In this document: positions 2,341 through 63,164 of the stretch, in pieces
Numbering within the stretch: the first letter of the stretch is position 1
Layout: each line of letters opens with the position of its first letter
Origin: Desulfovibrio sp. UCD-KL4C
Lineage (GTDB): Bacteria; Desulfobacterota; Desulfovibrionia; Desulfovibrionales; Desulfovibrionaceae
Direction of reading: 5' to 3'
Length of the DNA stretch: 64,000 nt
Assembly (NCBI RefSeq): GCF_006210265.1
Contig: NZ_VCNC01000001.1
Coordinates: forward strand, 506,843-570,842
Translations under genes and position numbers: made by a program
The notes under the pieces: generated by a model
The model's input: only the letters and a program-made list of their open reading frames with translations
The model's database searches: none
What the model was told of the DNA's origin: nothing

Positions 2341-4449
2341 ATGACCCCGGATTCACCGGATAAGCAGGCAAAGGAAGAGGTTCTTGACCTTAATGATATC
2401 GCGGAAGAAATCGTCACAGATGATGCTTCTGGAGTTCATGATGTAGATACAAGTTTTGAGCAGGAACTCGAAGACCTATTTTCCGAAGATCTGGAGCTTG
2501 AAGAACCCGCTGTCGGTGATATCGAGGAAAGTTCAGAGGATGACGATCTTCTTGTTCTTGATGATGTTGTCGAAGAGGTCAGTGATGACGAGTTACTGGA
2601 ACTTGATGACGCCATGATTCTTGATGATGTTGTCGAAGAAGTCAGTGATGACGATTTACTGGAACTTGATGATGCCATGATTCTCGATGATGTTGTCGAA
2701 GAAGTCAGTGATGACGCTATGGTTCTTGATGAAGCCATGATTCTTGATGATGTTGTCGAAGATGACGAAGATGTAGTTCTTGATGATGTCTTAGATGAAG
2801 CTGAAAAATTGGAATCTGCTGATTCTGATTCCGATACAGATACAATGCTTGAAAATTTTGATCTTGGTGAAGAATCACTTATGGCTGCTGAAGCTGAATC
2901 AGCTGAAGGTGAGGTTGATGCCGAGGGATTAGATCATGTCATCGACGAACTTGGCGGGGATAGCACTGTTGCCGCTGATGACAAAGATGATATTGATAAT
3001 TTATTTGATGGCGACACAGATGTCGCAGCCCTTGATCAACTGCTGGATGATTCCGATGCTGATAGCGATATTGATGAACTTAATGATTTGCTTGGTGATG
3101 TCTCAGAAGATGTAGATCTTTCAGAACTCGGAGAAGATATCCTAGCAGATGAAGATATTGAAAGTCTGCTGTCTGACGATGAAGATCTTTTAGAGATTTC
3201 AGAAGAGGGACTTGATCCTTTAGAGGTTGATGAACCTGAAGCTGCAAGCGAGCAGGTTGAACCTGTTAAAGTTCCTGAAGCAGTAGAACCTGCTGAAACT
3301 CCTGAGGTTGTCGAAGCAGAAATAGCAGAAACTTTAGAAGTTGAACTGTCGGGAACTACTGAAGGATTAGAAACTCCAGATGTTTCAGAGCAAAGTGAAG
3401 AAATTTTAGAAAACGTCGTCCTTGATGATGATCTTAATTCAATTACTGAAGAGCCTGCCGGGCCAGATGTATCACCTGCTGTAGATTCAGCCGATATTGA
3501 TACAGACACAGACGATTCAGAGCTTAACGAATTAGATGATAGTGATGCTAGTCAACTTGATGATGACGATATTGATTTGGGTGAATTACTTGAAGATGTT
3601 GAAATAGACCTATCTGATCTTGATGAAGAGGATCTTATGCCAGCAGATGAGTTCGGATCAGCTGATTCTGGACCGCTTGTGACAGTTGAAGCTGTAAATG
3701 AACTGGCTGATAGAATTGATTCGTTTGATTCAGAATTCACAAAACTGAAAGATCTTATTGATTCTACTGCTGCTGGATACAAAGATGCAAATCTTGAAGA
3801 AAAAGTGGTGCTGGCTGAAAAACGGGCTGAGGACCTTGAGGTTGCTCTTGCCGAGTCTTCGGAAAGGATTATTGCTCTTGAAGAAAAAGTCGCTCAGATT
3901 AATTCCCTTGAGGACACTGTTTCGTCATTGATGGCGTCAGTTCAAGGACTTGAAGAACGGCTTTCAAGTGGAGAGATTGATTCTGTTGTTGGACAGAAAT
4001 TAAGTGAAACTCTTAAGGCTGATTCTCCGGCAGTTATTGCCGTTGCAGCTATTGCTGCTGACGAAATACAGGAACGAGTCGAAGAATGGGTCCAGACCGG
4101 AATGCTCGAAATTAAGGCTGAAGTTGCTGAGAAGGTTACAGCTTTAGAAGAAAAACTTAATGCTGCGCCTGATATGGCGGAACTTGTAAGTAACGAGCTT
4201 GAAAAAGAACTTGATCCTGAGTCCACCGCTTTTTATCGCATCAAAAGCCGACTCACAGAAGATATTGAGGATTATTTGACTCCGCGCTTGATTGAAAAAA
4301 TAGAAGAGATGAAAGGAGATGTCGAAGACAACTTTAAATCTACTATTGATGAAATCCTTGCTGAAAAGCTCGAAAGATCGGTCCCTGCTGAAGCCGCACG
4401 GATTATCAGGGAAGAGATTGCGGCTCTTGCCCGCGATTTTGACGAATAG
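2341..4449 (+). CDS. Large acidic repeat/coiled-coil protein, function unknown
   Basis: 702 residues, no signal peptide and no membrane segment seen. Roughly residues 1-440 are extremely acidic (Asp/Glu with Leu, Val, Ser and few basic residues) and include nearly identical 20-21-residue repeats of the type DDVVEEVSDDELLELDDAMIL. Residues about 450-560 look like a coiled coil (heptad-like EEKVVLAEKRAEDLE, VAQINSLEDTVSS). The C-terminal part, around 580-702, is helical and better balanced in charge, with PAVIAVAAIAADEIQERVEEW. No enzyme motif is recognised. It follows cytochrome c3 after a terminator and has a GAGGG ribosome site. A scaffold or polar-localisation role is conceivable from architecture alone, but no function is assigned. 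Long antisense frames opposite the repeat are composition artefacts. Confidence 0.8.
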   Translation: MTPDSPDKQAKEEVLDLNDIAEEIVTDDASGVHDVDTSFEQELEDLFSEDLELEEPAVGDIEESSEDDDLLVLDDVVEEVSDDELLELDDAMILDDVVEEVSDDDLLELDDAMILDDVVEEVSDDAMVLDEAMILDDVVEDDEDVVLDDVLDEAEKLESADSDSDTDTMLENFDLGEESLMAAEAESAEGEVDAEGLDHVIDELGGDSTVAADDKDDIDNLFDGDTDVAALDQLLDDSDADSDIDELNDLLGDVSEDVDLSELGEDILADEDIESLLSDDEDLLEISEEGLDPLEVDEPEAASEQVEPVKVPEAVEPAETPEVVEAEIAETLEVELSGTTEGLETPDVSEQSEEILENVVLDDDLNSITEEPAGPDVSPAVDSADIDTDTDDSELNELDDSDASQLDDDDIDLGELLEDVEIDLSDLDEEDLMPADEFGSADSGPLVTVEAVNELADRIDSFDSEFTKLKDLIDSTAAGYKDANLEEKVVLAEKRAEDLEVALAESSERIIALEEKVAQINSLEDTVSSLMASVQGLEERLSSGEIDSVVGQKLSETLKADSPAVIAVAAIAADEIQERVEEWVQTGMLEIKAEVAEKVTALEEKLNAAPDMAELVSNELEKELDPESTAFYRIKSRLTEDIEDYLTPRLIEKIEEMKGDVEDNFKSTIDEILAEKLERSVPAEAARIIREEIAALARDFDE
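2560..2760 (+). repeat. In-frame 63-bp tandem repeats in the acidic gene
   Basis: Three tandem units start at 2560, 2623 and 2686 (63, 63 and 60 bp) and a partial fourth starts at 2746. Each encodes DDVVEEVSDD...AMIL. Nucleotide identity is high, so copy number could vary by slippage or recombination. Confidence 0.85.
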
Positions 4450-57769: not shown

Positions 57770-57869
57770 CTAATATAAAAGTGCAAATTAAAATTAAAAA
57801 TAGAAATCAGAAAATCAAGGACTTATCAGTTGAGTCTGAGTTTAAATTTTAATGTGGAGACAGGAAAAT

Positions 57870-58868
57870 ATGACAGAAAAAAAGAAAGGGATATCGAGGC
57901 GAAGTTTCTTAAAAGGGCTTGGAGTTGGAAGTGCCGCCATGCTTTTGCCTTCCACGTCTACAGCAACGGCTGCATCATCTGGAACAGAAGAGCTGGCGAC
58001 TTTGCTTGATATTTCAAAATGTATCGGTTGCGGTGAGTGTGTAAACGGGTGTTCTGAAGTTAACGGGTCAAAATATCCTGAACCTAAGAAGCCTTTTCCG
58101 GTAATGTATCCTACGTCTCGTGTTAAGGTTGAGGATTGGTCGGATAAGCGGGGTGTGGATGACAGGCTTACACCATATAACTGGCTTTTCATTCAAAGTG
58201 CGGAAGTAGAGTATAAGGGTGAAAATTATGAAGTAAATATTCCGCGCCGCTGTCTGCATTGCCAGAATCCTCCTTGTGCAGATCTTTGCCCTTGGGGTGC
58301 GGCGGCAAAGCAGAAAAACGGTATAGTACGTATTCAGCCAAATGTCTGCCTTGGCGGGGCAAAGTGTCGGGCCGTTTGCCCTTGGCATATACCACAGCGG
58401 CAAACCGGAGTGGGATTATACATGCGTCTTCTTCCTAAATTTGGCGGTAACGGTGTGATGTATAAGTGTGACCGTTGTTACAATCGTATTAACGAAGGCA
58501 AACTTCCTGCCTGCATAGAAGTCTGTCCTGAACATGTTCAGACCATAGGTCCGCGTAGCGAAATTTTAGCTAAAGCGCATGAATTGGCAGATAAAAATGG
58601 TTGGTTCATTTATGGGGAAGAAGAAAACGGCGGAACCAATACAATTTATGTATCACCGGTACCTTTTGATCTTTTGAATAAAGCAATTGAGAAAGGCGCA
58701 GGAAAACCGGGGCTACAACCTGTTGCCGACTCAATGGCGGATGAAGAAAATCTTGCTAGTGCAATAGCTATTGCACCGCTTGCAGGTATTGCTGCCGGAA
58801 TTATCAAAGCAGGAAATTATCTATCCTCTGCTGCAGATGATAAGAACAAGGATAAGAATGATGAGTAA
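57870..58868 (+). CDS. Tat-exported four-cluster ferredoxin (PsrB/DmsB/HmcB-like electron transfer subunit)
   Basis: 332 residues. Start set at the ATG giving MTEKKKGISRRSFLKG, a twin-arginine signal. Cysteine groups: CIGCGECVNGC, CLHCQNPPCADLCP, CLGGAKCRAVCP and CDRCYNRINEGKLPACIEVCP, enough for four [4Fe-4S] clusters in the usual two-pair arrangement. A C-terminal Ala/Ile-rich helix (AIAIAPLAGIAAGI) may anchor it. It passes electrons between the membrane and the periplasmic octaheme protein encoded downstream. First gene of the operon. Confidence 0.9.
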   Translation: MTEKKKGISRRSFLKGLGVGSAAMLLPSTSTATAASSGTEELATLLDISKCIGCGECVNGCSEVNGSKYPEPKKPFPVMYPTSRVKVEDWSDKRGVDDRLTPYNWLFIQSAEVEYKGENYEVNIPRRCLHCQNPPCADLCPWGAAAKQKNGIVRIQPNVCLGGAKCRAVCPWHIPQRQTGVGLYMRLLPKFGGNGVMYKCDRCYNRINEGKLPACIEVCPEHVQTIGPRSEILAKAHELADKNGWFIYGEEENGGTNTIYVSPVPFDLLNKAIEKGAGKPGLQPVADSMADEENLASAIAIAPLAGIAAGIIKAGNYLSSAADDKNKDKNDE

Positions 58869-59331
58869 AAACATATACGGCTGGTTTTTTAAAATTGTTG
58901 TCTTTTTTATGGCCCTCACCGGAGTAGCTCAGATGCCTATCTTCAAAAGATATTACATCGCCAGTATTCCCGGTTTAAGTTGGCTTTCCAATTTCTATCT
59001 CACCAATAAACTTCATTACATGTTGGGCGCAGTGCTGATCTTTATGGTTATGTTCATGGCCACGGATTTTATTATGAGTAAGCGCGGTAAGATACGTTTA
59101 TCTCTTTGCGGGAAAGTGCGCGCATTTCTTTTTGCTGCGGTTATATTTACCGGCGTTTTTCGCGTAATAAAGAATCTTCCGTATGTAACTATGGACCCTT
59201 TTACGGTAATGATGATAGACTGGACTCATCTGGGATTTGCGATTCTTCTTGGAATCGCTGCTCTTATTGCCTTGGTTCGAGGACGTTCATCATATTTTGA
59301 AAGTGTTCGAGTTGGAACTAATGTTCGTTAA
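58858..59331 (+). CDS. Small membrane subunit (cytochrome b-like), C-terminus altered by a duplication
   Basis: 157 residues with four membrane helices. Overlaps the end of the ferredoxin gene and follows AAGGA. In-helix His residues occur in NKLHYMLGAV and DWTHLGFAIL, compatible with heme b or quinone binding. The last residues after GRSSYFE are SVRVGTNVR. The repeated segment at 60698-60847 instead continues in frame to GYKEHYGGS and a stop, so the original tail probably was the latter. The 120-bp segment 59182-59301 is present twice. Confidence 0.75.
   Translation: MMSKNIYGWFFKIVVFFMALTGVAQMPIFKRYYIASIPGLSWLSNFYLTNKLHYMLGAVLIFMVMFMATDFIMSKRGKIRLSLCGKVRAFLFAAVIFTGVFRVIKNLPYVTMDPFTVMMIDWTHLGFAILLGIAALIALVRGRSSYFESVRVGTNVR
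59182..59301 (+). repeat. 120-bp direct repeat, copy 1
   Basis: Identical over 120 bases to 60698-60817 (offset 1,516). It covers the last third of the membrane-subunit gene. Identity stops abruptly on both sides. Confidence 0.97.
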
Positions 59332-59426
59332 TGAGAGGTTTTTTATAGCCTTATAGATCATAAAGAAGATTAAGGAATTAGAGCATGAATCTCTCTTAGT
59401 TATATGTATATGTGGAATATTCAGTG

Positions 59427-59432
59427 TATAAT
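59427..59432 (+). promoter_or_regulatory. Possible -10 for the inserted glycosyltransferase
   Basis: A TATAAT 43 bases before the start codon; no convincing -35. Suggests the gene could be transcribed independently of the operon. Confidence 0.25.
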
Positions 59433-59474
59433 CTCTGGTAGACTTTGTTTGTTTCGAAAGATAATTATTTATAG

Positions 59475-60659
59475 ATGATTAATATTCCACATATAAAGGG
59501 CCAGCGTCCTCGGGTTCTGCTTATCACTCAAGATTATTTTGTTATTCCTGAGCTTGCCAGAGGTTTGAAGTCTCTTGGAATTTCCTTTGTTTCAGTCGAA
59601 TTTCAACAGACCCCTTTTTTTCTTAAGAAGTTGCTTGATAAAGTCGCGCTTTTAAAACCTCACTTTATTTTATCCGTCAATCATGCTGGACTGGATCGGG
59701 AAGGGCAGGTTCTGGGACTGTTAAAACGTTGTGGGGTTCCATTTGCAAGCTGGTTTGTAGATCGTCAGGAAATATTTCTTAGATCAGATGTTGACGCAAA
59801 CTCCCTACTTGCTGTTTTCAGTTGGGACCCAGAAGCTATTGTGTCTTTGAATAAGCGAAATGTTCCTTATGCACAGTATCTTCCACTTGGAACTGATACT
59901 TCTATTTTTCATCCAGTTAAGGGATATCATGAATACTTATACCCTGTTTCATTCGTCGGTTCTACGTGGACACCGAAGATAGTTGAGGTGCTGCGAGCCG
60001 GTGGTTTTCCTGTAACTTTACTGCGCAAGTACAAGACTCTTGGTGGGTTGCTGGAAGAAGATTTCTCAATTGATATGAATGAATTACTTAATCGTGCAGG
60101 GAATGATGTCTTTGAAACATGTATAAGTTTGCCTTCAGATAAACAGGAGATGTTTTTTCGCCTTATACAGCTGCAGGCTACAAGGTTAAGGCGTATCAAT
60201 ATTGTGTCTGGGTTATTAGAGTTTAGTCCTGCTATTGTGGGGGATACTTATTGGGTCAGGGCTTTGTCTAAAAAGAAGATAGATTTTACATGGTGGAATC
60301 ATCTTAAATATGAGGATGAATTACCTGCTTTTTATAGGCAGTCTATATTGAACTTTAATGCTGTAAGTCTCCAGTCTGCCGCTTCTTTAAATCAACGTAT
60401 TTTCGATGTGCCTGCTTGCGGTTCTTTTTTGCTGACTGAGTATAACTCAGCACTTGAAAATCTTTTTGAACCAGGCAAAGAGGTTGCATGTTACGATAAA
60501 GATGACAATATCCAGGGAGTTATATCGAAATGGCTCTCAGATGAAAAAGGGCGGGAAAAAATAATTCGTGCCGGTATGAAAAGAATTTTTGCTGAGCACA
60601 CTTATCAACACAGAATTATAAAAATTATTTCAAAGATGAACCAGTTTTTTTATAAGTAA
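59475..60659 (+). CDS. CgeB-like glycosyltransferase inserted in the operon
   Basis: 394 residues, GT-B type with a DUF3880-like N-half (PRVLLITQDYFVIPELARGL, DREGQVLGLLKRCGVPFASW) and a C-half of the PF13524 group (QRIFDVPACGSFLLTEYNSALENLFEPGKE). No strong ribosome site precedes it. It lies in the 1,396-base segment between two identical 120-bp repeats, within an electron-transfer operon to which it has no evident functional link. Acceptor unknown. Distantly related to the protein at 31838. Confidence 0.82.
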   Translation: MINIPHIKGQRPRVLLITQDYFVIPELARGLKSLGISFVSVEFQQTPFFLKKLLDKVALLKPHFILSVNHAGLDREGQVLGLLKRCGVPFASWFVDRQEIFLRSDVDANSLLAVFSWDPEAIVSLNKRNVPYAQYLPLGTDTSIFHPVKGYHEYLYPVSFVGSTWTPKIVEVLRAGGFPVTLLRKYKTLGGLLEEDFSIDMNELLNRAGNDVFETCISLPSDKQEMFFRLIQLQATRLRRINIVSGLLEFSPAIVGDTYWVRALSKKKIDFTWWNHLKYEDELPAFYRQSILNFNAVSLQSAASLNQRIFDVPACGSFLLTEYNSALENLFEPGKEVACYDKDDNIQGVISKWLSDEKGREKIIRAGMKRIFAEHTYQHRIIKIISKMNQFFYK

Positions 60660-60697
60660 GTATAAATACCCTGATCATAGGTTCTCTAAAAATATAA

Positions 60698-60817
60698 TAT
60701 GTAACTATGGACCCTTTTACGGTAATGATGATAGACTGGACTCATCTGGGATTTGCGATTCTTCTTGGAATCGCTGCTCTTATTGCCTTGGTTCGAGGAC
60801 GTTCATCATATTTTGAA
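60698..60817 (+). repeat. 120-bp direct repeat, copy 2
   Basis: Perfect copy of 59182-59301; flanked upstream by the end of the glycosyltransferase region and downstream by operon sequence leading to the octaheme gene. Confidence 0.97.
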
Positions 60818-60847
60818 GGCTATAAGGAGCATTATGGAGGCAGTTAG
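60698..60847 (+). pseudogene. Detached 3' end of the membrane-subunit gene
   Basis: Reading in the frame of the intact copy, 49 codons run YVTMDPF... through RGRSSYFE and then GYKEHYGGS to a TAG at 60845-60847. No start or ribosome site of its own. It appears to be the original end of the gene at 58858, separated from it by the inserted segment. Confidence 0.75.
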
Positions 60848-60876: not shown

Positions 60877-62505
60877 ATGGGGTTCATAAGGAGATCAGTT
60901 TTAGCACTGGCAACAGTTGCTTTTCTGTGCGGTCCTGTGTTCGGAGCGAGTGATGATGCTCCGGGCATAGAAATGGCTCGTCAGGCGACCAAGGGTAAAG
61001 AACTTTGGATAACAGCGGATCATTCCAAATTTGATGTCCTTAAGCAGCCGTTTACCAAAGGTCCGGAAGTTACACAGGCCTGTCTGACCTGCCATACCGA
61101 GGCCGGACATCAGTTTCATAAAACCATTCACTGGACATGGCTTGACCCCAAAGCAGAAAAAGAAATGGGGATAGGCAAGGGCGGTTTGGTGATGAATAAT
61201 TTTTGTATTAACATTCAATCCAATGAACCTCGCTGTACTTCCTGTCATGCCGGATATGGATGGAAAGATAAGAATTTTGATTTTTCGTCTCAAAAAAAGA
61301 TAGATTGTCTGGTTTGCCATGAGCAGACGGGAACATATAAAAAGTTTCCTGCCGGAGCCGGTAATCCTGCCCCACCTCCCGGGATGAAATTTAAGGGGAA
61401 CGGCAAGTATTATAAATCCCCTGATTGGAACAAGGTTGCACAATCAGTCAGTCGTCCAACCCGTGCTAATTGCGGTACCTGCCATTTCTATGGTGGCGGT
61501 GGTGACGGAGTAAAACATGGTGATCTTGATTCTTCCATGCGTATGCCGAGCAAGAATCTTGATGTTCATATGAGCATGGAAGGGCAGAAGTTTGAATGTA
61601 CTCGCTGTCATACCACTGTAAAACATCAAATTGCGGGCCGCATTTATTCAAATCCTGCCGCTACGGACCGTAAATCTCTACTTGAAGATGATTTAGGCGC
61701 AAAAATTATGTGTGAATCCTGCCATAGTGCAACTCCGCATAAATCGGAAATTGGTATGAAGCTTAATGATCATACTGATAAAGTTGCCTGTCAGAGCTGT
61801 CATATACCTACCTTTGCACGTGAGCTTCCAACCAAGATGTGGTGGGACTGGTCACAGGCCGGTAGAAAGAAAGACGGCAAAGCTTATGTCGTCAAAGGTG
61901 AGTGGGGCAAGCCTACATATATGACCAAGAAAGGTGATATGCGGTGGGAAAAAGATGTTATTCCTGAATATTACTGGTTTAACGGTACAATTGAATCTAT
62001 CACCGCCAAGACTGTTGTTGATCCGAGCCTTCCTGTACAGGTTAGCAGGCCGATCGGAAGCAGTAAGGACAGCAAATCACGTATCATGCCTTTTAAGGTA
62101 CATCGTGGAAAGACTCCCTATGACATTGTTAATAAAAATATGATAATTCCTCACTTGTTCGGCAAGGATGAGGCTGCATACTGGAAGGGATATGACTGGG
62201 TAAAAGCATCCGCTGCCGGAATGGCATATGCAGGTCTTCCATTCAGCGGTAATGTTGGTTTTGTTGAAACTGAATATGTTTATCCTATCACTCACATGGT
62301 TGCACCCAAAGATAATGTTCTTGCCTGTGAAGCGTGTCATAGCAAGCAGAGCCGATTAAGCAATCTCAATTCCTTTTATATGCCAAGACGAGATTCAAAT
62401 CGTGTTGTTGATGCCGGTGGATGGTTTATAGTCATAGCTTCTGCTGTAGGAGTGATTCTGCATGCACTCGGACGAATCTTCATAAAGGGACGTAAGGAGG
62501 ACTAG
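60877..62505 (+). CDS. Octaheme c-type cytochrome, OTR (tetrathionate reductase) family, membrane anchored
   Basis: 542 residues: signal peptide (SVLALATVAFLCGPVFGA), eight CXXCH motifs (CLTCH, CTSCH, CLVCH, CGTCH, CTRCH, CESCH, CQSCH, CEACH) and a C-terminal helix (WFIVIASAVGVILHALG). The opening FDVLKQPFTKGPEVTQACLTCHTEAG and HWTW is the hallmark of the octaheme tetrathionate reductase family known from Shewanella; relatives also reduce nitrite or hydroxylamine in vitro, so the physiological substrate is open. GGAGG precedes the ATG. It is the presumed catalytic subunit of the operon. Confidence 0.9.
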   Translation: MGFIRRSVLALATVAFLCGPVFGASDDAPGIEMARQATKGKELWITADHSKFDVLKQPFTKGPEVTQACLTCHTEAGHQFHKTIHWTWLDPKAEKEMGIGKGGLVMNNFCINIQSNEPRCTSCHAGYGWKDKNFDFSSQKKIDCLVCHEQTGTYKKFPAGAGNPAPPPGMKFKGNGKYYKSPDWNKVAQSVSRPTRANCGTCHFYGGGGDGVKHGDLDSSMRMPSKNLDVHMSMEGQKFECTRCHTTVKHQIAGRIYSNPAATDRKSLLEDDLGAKIMCESCHSATPHKSEIGMKLNDHTDKVACQSCHIPTFARELPTKMWWDWSQAGRKKDGKAYVVKGEWGKPTYMTKKGDMRWEKDVIPEYYWFNGTIESITAKTVVDPSLPVQVSRPIGSSKDSKSRIMPFKVHRGKTPYDIVNKNMIIPHLFGKDEAAYWKGYDWVKASAAGMAYAGLPFSGNVGFVETEYVYPITHMVAPKDNVLACEACHSKQSRLSNLNSFYMPRRDSNRVVDAGGWFIVIASAVGVILHALGRIFIKGRKED

Positions 62506-62507
62506 TC

Positions 62508-63164
62508 ATGGCTTTAACACATCATCATATGAAAAAAATATATTTGTACTCACGTTTCGAACGTTTCTGGCACTGGACACAGTCTGTGCTGATTGTCCTG
62601 CTTATGGTCACAGGACTTGAGGTTCACGGGCTCTTTAATCTATTCGGTTTTGAAAGAGCCGTAGATCTGCATAATACCTTTGGAATCAGTTGGCTGGTAT
62701 TGTTTGTATTCATTATCTTCTGGTTACTGACAACAGGTGAATGGAAACAGTATATCCCAACGTCTAAGAAGCTTTTTGCGGTGGCAAGATATTACGCTGT
62801 AGGAATATTCAAAGGTGAAGATCATCCTGTTCACAAAAGTTCTGGCGCAAAGCATAATCCGTTGCAACGGCTTGTTTATCTGGGATTATCTGCAATTCTG
62901 CTTCCCTTACAAATGGTAACTGGATTGTTGTACTGGACTTATAATGACTGGGTCGCTTACGGGATTAACTTTGTAAGTCTCGAAACTGTTGCAAATGTGC
63001 ATATGGGCTGTGCCTACGCATTGTTGGCCTTCCTTATAGTGCATATTTATATGACCACAACAGGACACTCCATAACAGCTCACGTTGCTGCCATGTTCAG
63101 CGGATGGGAAGAAGTTCCGGTAGATTATAAAGTAGAAGAGTGGGAAGTTCATAAGAAGAGTTAA
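62508..63164 (+). CDS. Membrane cytochrome b (PhsC/HydC-like) of the octaheme system
   Basis: 218 residues, about four membrane helices with heme-ligating His: FERFWHWTQSVLIVLLMVTG, LHNTFGISWL, VHMGCAYALLAFLIVHIYMTTTGH. This is the di-heme cytochrome b module found with hydrogenases, formate dehydrogenases and thiosulfate/OTR systems, linking menaquinol to periplasmic hemes. AAGGAGG six bases before the ATG; two bases after the octaheme stop. Last gene of the operon. Confidence 0.9.
   Translation: MALTHHHMKKIYLYSRFERFWHWTQSVLIVLLMVTGLEVHGLFNLFGFERAVDLHNTFGISWLVLFVFIIFWLLTTGEWKQYIPTSKKLFAVARYYAVGIFKGEDHPVHKSSGAKHNPLQRLVYLGLSAILLPLQMVTGLLYWTYNDWVAYGINFVSLETVANVHMGCAYALLAFLIVHIYMTTTGHSITAHVAAMFSGWEEVPVDYKVEEWEVHKKS

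Follow-up and report, generated by a model that had tools for sequence, protein, structure and literature searches.

How did a glycosyltransferase gene come to lie inside an electron-transfer operon between two perfect direct repeats, and how long has it been there? A preliminary description of this locus had proposed a recent insertion with a long duplicated target. The layout supports an insertion that duplicated its target, and the comparison of related genomes described below speaks against its being recent.

The interrupted operon

Within the window (the whole 64,000-nucleotide stretch analysed), positions 59182-59301 (R1) and 60698-60817 (R2) carry the same 120 nucleotides with 100% identity at a start-to-start spacing of 1516, and this sequence occurs at these two places only in the 3.93-Mb genome, here designated G000. 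R1 forms the 3' part of a small membrane-subunit gene (58861..59331, 156 aa), and R2 is a copy of that 3' part severed from its 5' part. The 1,396 bp of inserted DNA between them (59302..60697) consist of a 173-bp leader, a complete glycosyltransferase gene (59475..60659, 394 aa) and a 38-bp tail, all features of the locus being on the forward strand. The membrane-subunit gene is complete through R1 and ends in the insert-derived tail SVRVGTNVR (...SSYFESVRVGTNVR), and the frame of the right copy continues into the native 3' end at 60818..60847, GYKEHYGGS followed by a stop (...SSYFEGYKEHYGGS). The perfect repeats, the enclosed gene and the differing frame ends are thus as previously described.

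The 394-aa protein matched PF13524 (Glyco_trans_1_2; 9.4e-28, 97.4 bits, cut-off 25) in its C-terminal part, preceded by PF12996 (DUF3880; 1.1e-10, 42 bits, cut-off 25.2), a pair that we take to be the mark of CgeB-type enzymes; no NCBIfam model matched it. Profile matches also identified the surrounding electron-transfer operon as an octahaem-cytochrome operon, of which the membrane-subunit gene is the second gene. It is preceded by a gene for an HmcB/HybA-like Fe-S subunit with a Tat signal (57852..58868), which did not reach the curated cut-offs of the equivalog models concerned, and the repeat-bounded DNA is followed by genes for an octahaem cytochrome c of the tetrathionate-reductase family (60877..62505; TIGR04315, 624.1 bits against a cut-off of 375) and a cytochrome b561-type subunit (62508..63164; PF01292, 3.6e-30). 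The small membrane-subunit protein was matched by no Pfam or NCBIfam model. Promoter-like sites (7, against 7.8 in shuffles) and terminator-like sites (4, against 3.2) were at shuffle level.

Direct repeats were surveyed in 464 kb, comprising the window and 20 stretches of 20 kb from elsewhere in the same genome (these stretches amounting to about a tenth of that genome), counting pairs that were 50 bp or longer, at least 85% identical and less than 12 kb apart within one stretch. Two pairs were found, R1/R2 and a closely spaced repeat at window positions 2555-2762 (85 bp, 89% identical, start spacing 126); a second widely spaced pair of the R1/R2 kind was absent from the 464 kb. An assembly duplication peculiar to G000 was rejected, because two further assemblies, G014 and G006, show this structure too.

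Age of the insertion and of its repeats

Among 17 genomes of the genus, the membrane-subunit protein was matched in all, with a second, partial match in three (G000, G014 and G006). In these three the glycosyltransferase lies inside the operon between repeat copies, at the same place and with the same junctions, and a DNA search with the 173-bp leader matched solely them. The rpoB tree placed them as ((G000,G014),(G006,G005)),(G012,G007), with local support of 0.998-1.0 on these branches. The genus, possibly Maridesulfovibrio, belongs to the Desulfovibrionaceae, the locus of G009 being identical over 4,623 bp to a contig of Desulfovibrio sp. UBA2564. The two repeats of a genome are 100% identical in G000 (120 bp), 92.8% in G014 (125 bp) and 94.3% in G006 (88 bp). 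The preliminary description had held that relatives with the same interruption and diverged repeats would speak against a recent event; G014 and G006 are such relatives, and a recent insertion was rejected. Three genomes, G007 (L071), G008 (L078) and G012 (L070), had a membrane-subunit match yet no octahaem-cytochrome match; as the closest outgroup of G000, G014, G006 and G005 consists of G012 and G007, the lower half of the operon is lost or lacking there.

Divergence of the insert is about equal to that of its flanks. Between G000 and G014, the differences amounted to 120/1185 in the inserted gene (0.101), 17/173 in the leader (0.098) and 5/38 in the tail (0.132), compared with 38/321 in the membrane gene part (0.118) and 170/1629 in the octahaem gene (0.104). 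Between G000 and G006, they were 34/124 in the leader (0.274; 124 of 173 columns alignable) and 17/38 in the tail (0.447), alongside 68/305 (0.223) and 122/302 (0.404) in the two flanking intergenic stretches. The insertion is best explained, on these comparisons, as older than the split of the group of G000, G014, G006 and G005.

Synonymous divergence is evidence for a rival reading, in which the insertion postdates the species split and passed horizontally between lineages by recombination in the flanks, with G005 retaining the original empty site. The dS of the glycosyltransferase was 0.295 for G000-G014 and 0.51-0.54 for G014-G006, similar to that of rpoB (0.248 and 0.505) and lower than that of six flanking genes (0.45-0.65 and 0.85-1.9), at about 0.25-0.85 times the flanking values, varying by pair and gene. 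Either a slower rate or a later spread between lineages could account for this. The rival also gains from R1, which differs between G000 and G014 at 6/120 positions, whereas the adjoining gene part differs at 38/321. Against it, the leader and tail, which are non-coding, show roughly the divergence of non-coding DNA in the flanks, and in 200-bp bins no tract of low divergence was confined to the insert. The dN/dS of the glycosyltransferase between G000 and G014 was 0.21, compared with 0.02-0.13 for six neighbour genes; by this measure the gene looks to be under selection between these genomes, less so than its neighbours. In G006 it is frameshifted and split around codons 190-200.

If the repeats of an insertion older than the split had diverged freely, left copies should resemble left copies. 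The copies group instead by genome, which points to gene conversion. Across 120 columns of the G000 and G014 repeats, 107 were invariant in all four copies, 4 sorted by genome and none by copy, 7 were private to the G014 right copy and 2 showed other patterns. In a tree of nine repeat sequences, in which one of five inner branches was well supported, forcing the left copies into one clade cost 29.7 log-likelihood units (p-AU 0.0001) and forcing the right copies together with G005 cost 29.5 (p-AU 0.0003); both tests left the identical G000 pair free. Independent insertions fail to explain the grouping, because the junctions and inserts are homologous. Had there been no conversion, the chance of finding no difference in 120 bp would be about 3e-7 at the rate of 38/321 or 0.002 at the rate of 6/120. 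The complete identity in G000, previously taken as a sign of recency, is thus better explained by gene conversion, which would have homogenised the repeats of an old insertion, completely so in this genome. The right copy of G014, now outside any gene, is drifting; that of G006 contains a 29-nt gap.

The empty site in G005

A sister genome with an uninterrupted operon, as the preliminary description had suggested looking for, was found in G005, the sister of G006 (rpoB 99.2% identical; locus 94.5-95.5%). Its operon is without the insert and one repeat, and when it is aligned with G006 on either side, the two alignments share 88 bp at the repeat. Immediately before the repeat, G005 and the three right copies have A, where the three left copies, like G012 and G007, have G. 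At the third position of the repeat, G005 shares C with the right copy of G006 and with the distant G015, whereas every other repeat copy, and likewise G012 and G007, has T. The single copy in G005 differs from the G006 right copy at 3/91 positions and from the left copy at 6/120, and the right-copy-like signal at its left edge, two bases, is small because G005 differs little from either copy.

G005 is best read, from the uninterrupted operon and these aligned bases, as a clean excision product of recombination between the repeats, and the two bases would be explained by crossing over or annealing close to the left edge of the repeat. Recombination between the repeats had been expected to excise the gene and restore the operon, and in the species comparison G005 looks like that product. 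The right-copy bases at its left edge also count against an original empty site, and we consider horizontal spread after the species split unlikely.

An old insertion, homogenisation of its repeats by conversion and excision in G005 together make up a history that we hold to be highly probable, an assessment that excludes the nature of the first event. A 1.4-kb DNA with one CgeB-type gene would have landed in the 3' part of the membrane-subunit gene ahead of the split into four species, with about 120-125 bp of the target duplicated on entry. The repeats would afterwards have been homogenised by gene conversion, to completion in G000. In G005, recombination between them would have deleted the insert and one repeat and restored the operon, and in G006 the inserted gene would have decayed by frameshift. 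Conversion and excision presumably used host homologous recombination. The operon probably remained usable after the insertion, since the duplicated segment leaves the 5' gene intact except for its last residues. Compared side by side, the genomes show a shared insertion site, flank-like divergence, repeats grouped by genome and a seamless empty site, and the history read from them is a combination of already known processes. A more elaborate scheme treats the 1,516-bp unit of insert plus one repeat as a recombinase-free cassette, leaving and re-entering by host recombination, passing between species through the 120-bp homology, keeping its repeats alike by conversion and serving as a reversible glycosyltransferase switch; we regard it as very improbable.

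Origin of the duplication

Neither a transposase nor an integrase was found in the insert by the ORF list and the domain scan, consistent with the preliminary description. Its only long ORF is the glycosyltransferase gene, overlapped by a 90-aa minus-strand ORF that lay outside the domain scan. The ends of the insert carry no terminal inverted repeat above chance (local score 10; 122 of 500 shuffles scored as high). PF01609, the transposase family searched genome-wide, which we take to be the one covering IS1634 transposases, had no match in G000.

Relatives of the glycosyltransferase with 50-69% identity occupy two further sites in genomes of the genus, behind rnfB in G003, G010 and G004 (in G004 with a single 369-aa ORF intervening), and following a pair of tRNA-Met genes in G013, where DNA similarity extends from 37 bases 5' of the start codon through the stop codon. 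A match to the gene was obtained within about 1.5 kb behind rnfB in three of the 17 genomes, G000, G014, G006 and G005 giving none there. The rnf operon is thus a second electron-transfer operon adjoining this gene family (L059, L060, L061). Counted as protein matches of at least 50% identity over most of the protein, the glycosyltransferase occurs in 7/17 genomes at three places (G006 in two pieces), and is therefore an accessory gene. The preliminary description had also suggested looking for other CgeB-like genes flanked by long direct repeats. When the loci of the four relatives (G003, G004, G010, G013) were compared with themselves (E<=1e-3), no direct repeats were found besides the tRNA-Met genes of G013, which look unrelated because that stretch has two or more matches in 16 of the 17 genomes; repeat-flanked copies of the gene elsewhere were accordingly rejected.

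A genome-contig scan with the glycosyltransferase alignment yielded 45 stretches that fit a pattern, none of which was confirmed, and a scan for octahaem cytochromes yielded 65 loci, none with a glycosyltransferase match at E<=1e-3. Other direct repeats are contained in two of the 65 (L109 and L170); that of L109, from Desulfococcaceae bacterium HSG8, is a 424-bp direct repeat at 459-1350 (90% identical, spacing 468) upstream of an octahaem cytochrome gene. A literature search combining CgeB, glycosyltransferase and Desulfovibrio returned no paper, and the titles and abstract openings of related literature contained no description of the locus.

For the first event, we put about an even chance on a one-off accident of duplicative repair or template switching rather than an active element. 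A circle bearing the gene and the 120-bp segment could instead have integrated by a single homologous crossover of the Campbell type. Such a crossover would give the repeats directly, the layout as judged from them being that of its product, and a loss of the G005 type would be the reverse step; but the circle must already have held the 120-bp gene piece, and protein searches of plasmid and phage collections gave no close relative of the gene, which leaves this origin doubtful. In insertion-duplication (Campbell) integrants, direct repeats undergo conversion and loss between them. The present locus resembles them in its geometry and in a homogenisation and loss that probably proceeded by homologous recombination, and differs in being natural and retained through several speciations.

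A remnant of a site-specifically integrated element, with the repeats as att sites and the recombinase lost, would account for insertion in the 3' part of a gene, the one full target frame kept and the direct repeats. Tn5253 is a precedent, with reported 83/84-bp att repeats at rbgA and precise excision (PMC6079316). As in elements of the Tn5253 type, the long direct repeats include part of the target gene and clean loss would restore the site; unlike them, the locus is without a recombinase within its insert, measures 1.4 kb with one enzyme gene, and has an excision deduced from a comparison of species. The glycosyltransferase as the only long ORF, the three partial, distant plasmid and phage matches (26-32% identity) and the presence of this one-gene insert in three species make this origin distinctly unlikely.

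The statement that the repeats are far longer than target-site duplications made by transposases was too strong: direct repeats of 8-514 bp are reported for IS1549 and IS1634 (PMC2266710), a range that includes the length seen here. Carriage as a passenger of such a transposase is nevertheless a weak and most improbable explanation, as the insert, unlike those insertions, has neither transposase nor inverted repeats above chance, PF01609 is unmatched in the genome and no second widely spaced pair was seen in the surveyed 464 kb.

These results carry a caution for the dating of insertions: perfect flanking repeats give no date, because conversion can restore identity long after the insertion. 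Together, the four related species offer a rare ordered series of perfect repeats, diverged repeats, a decayed insert and an empty site, which is of use in judging conversion against excision where a direct repeat occurs naturally in a non-model bacterium.
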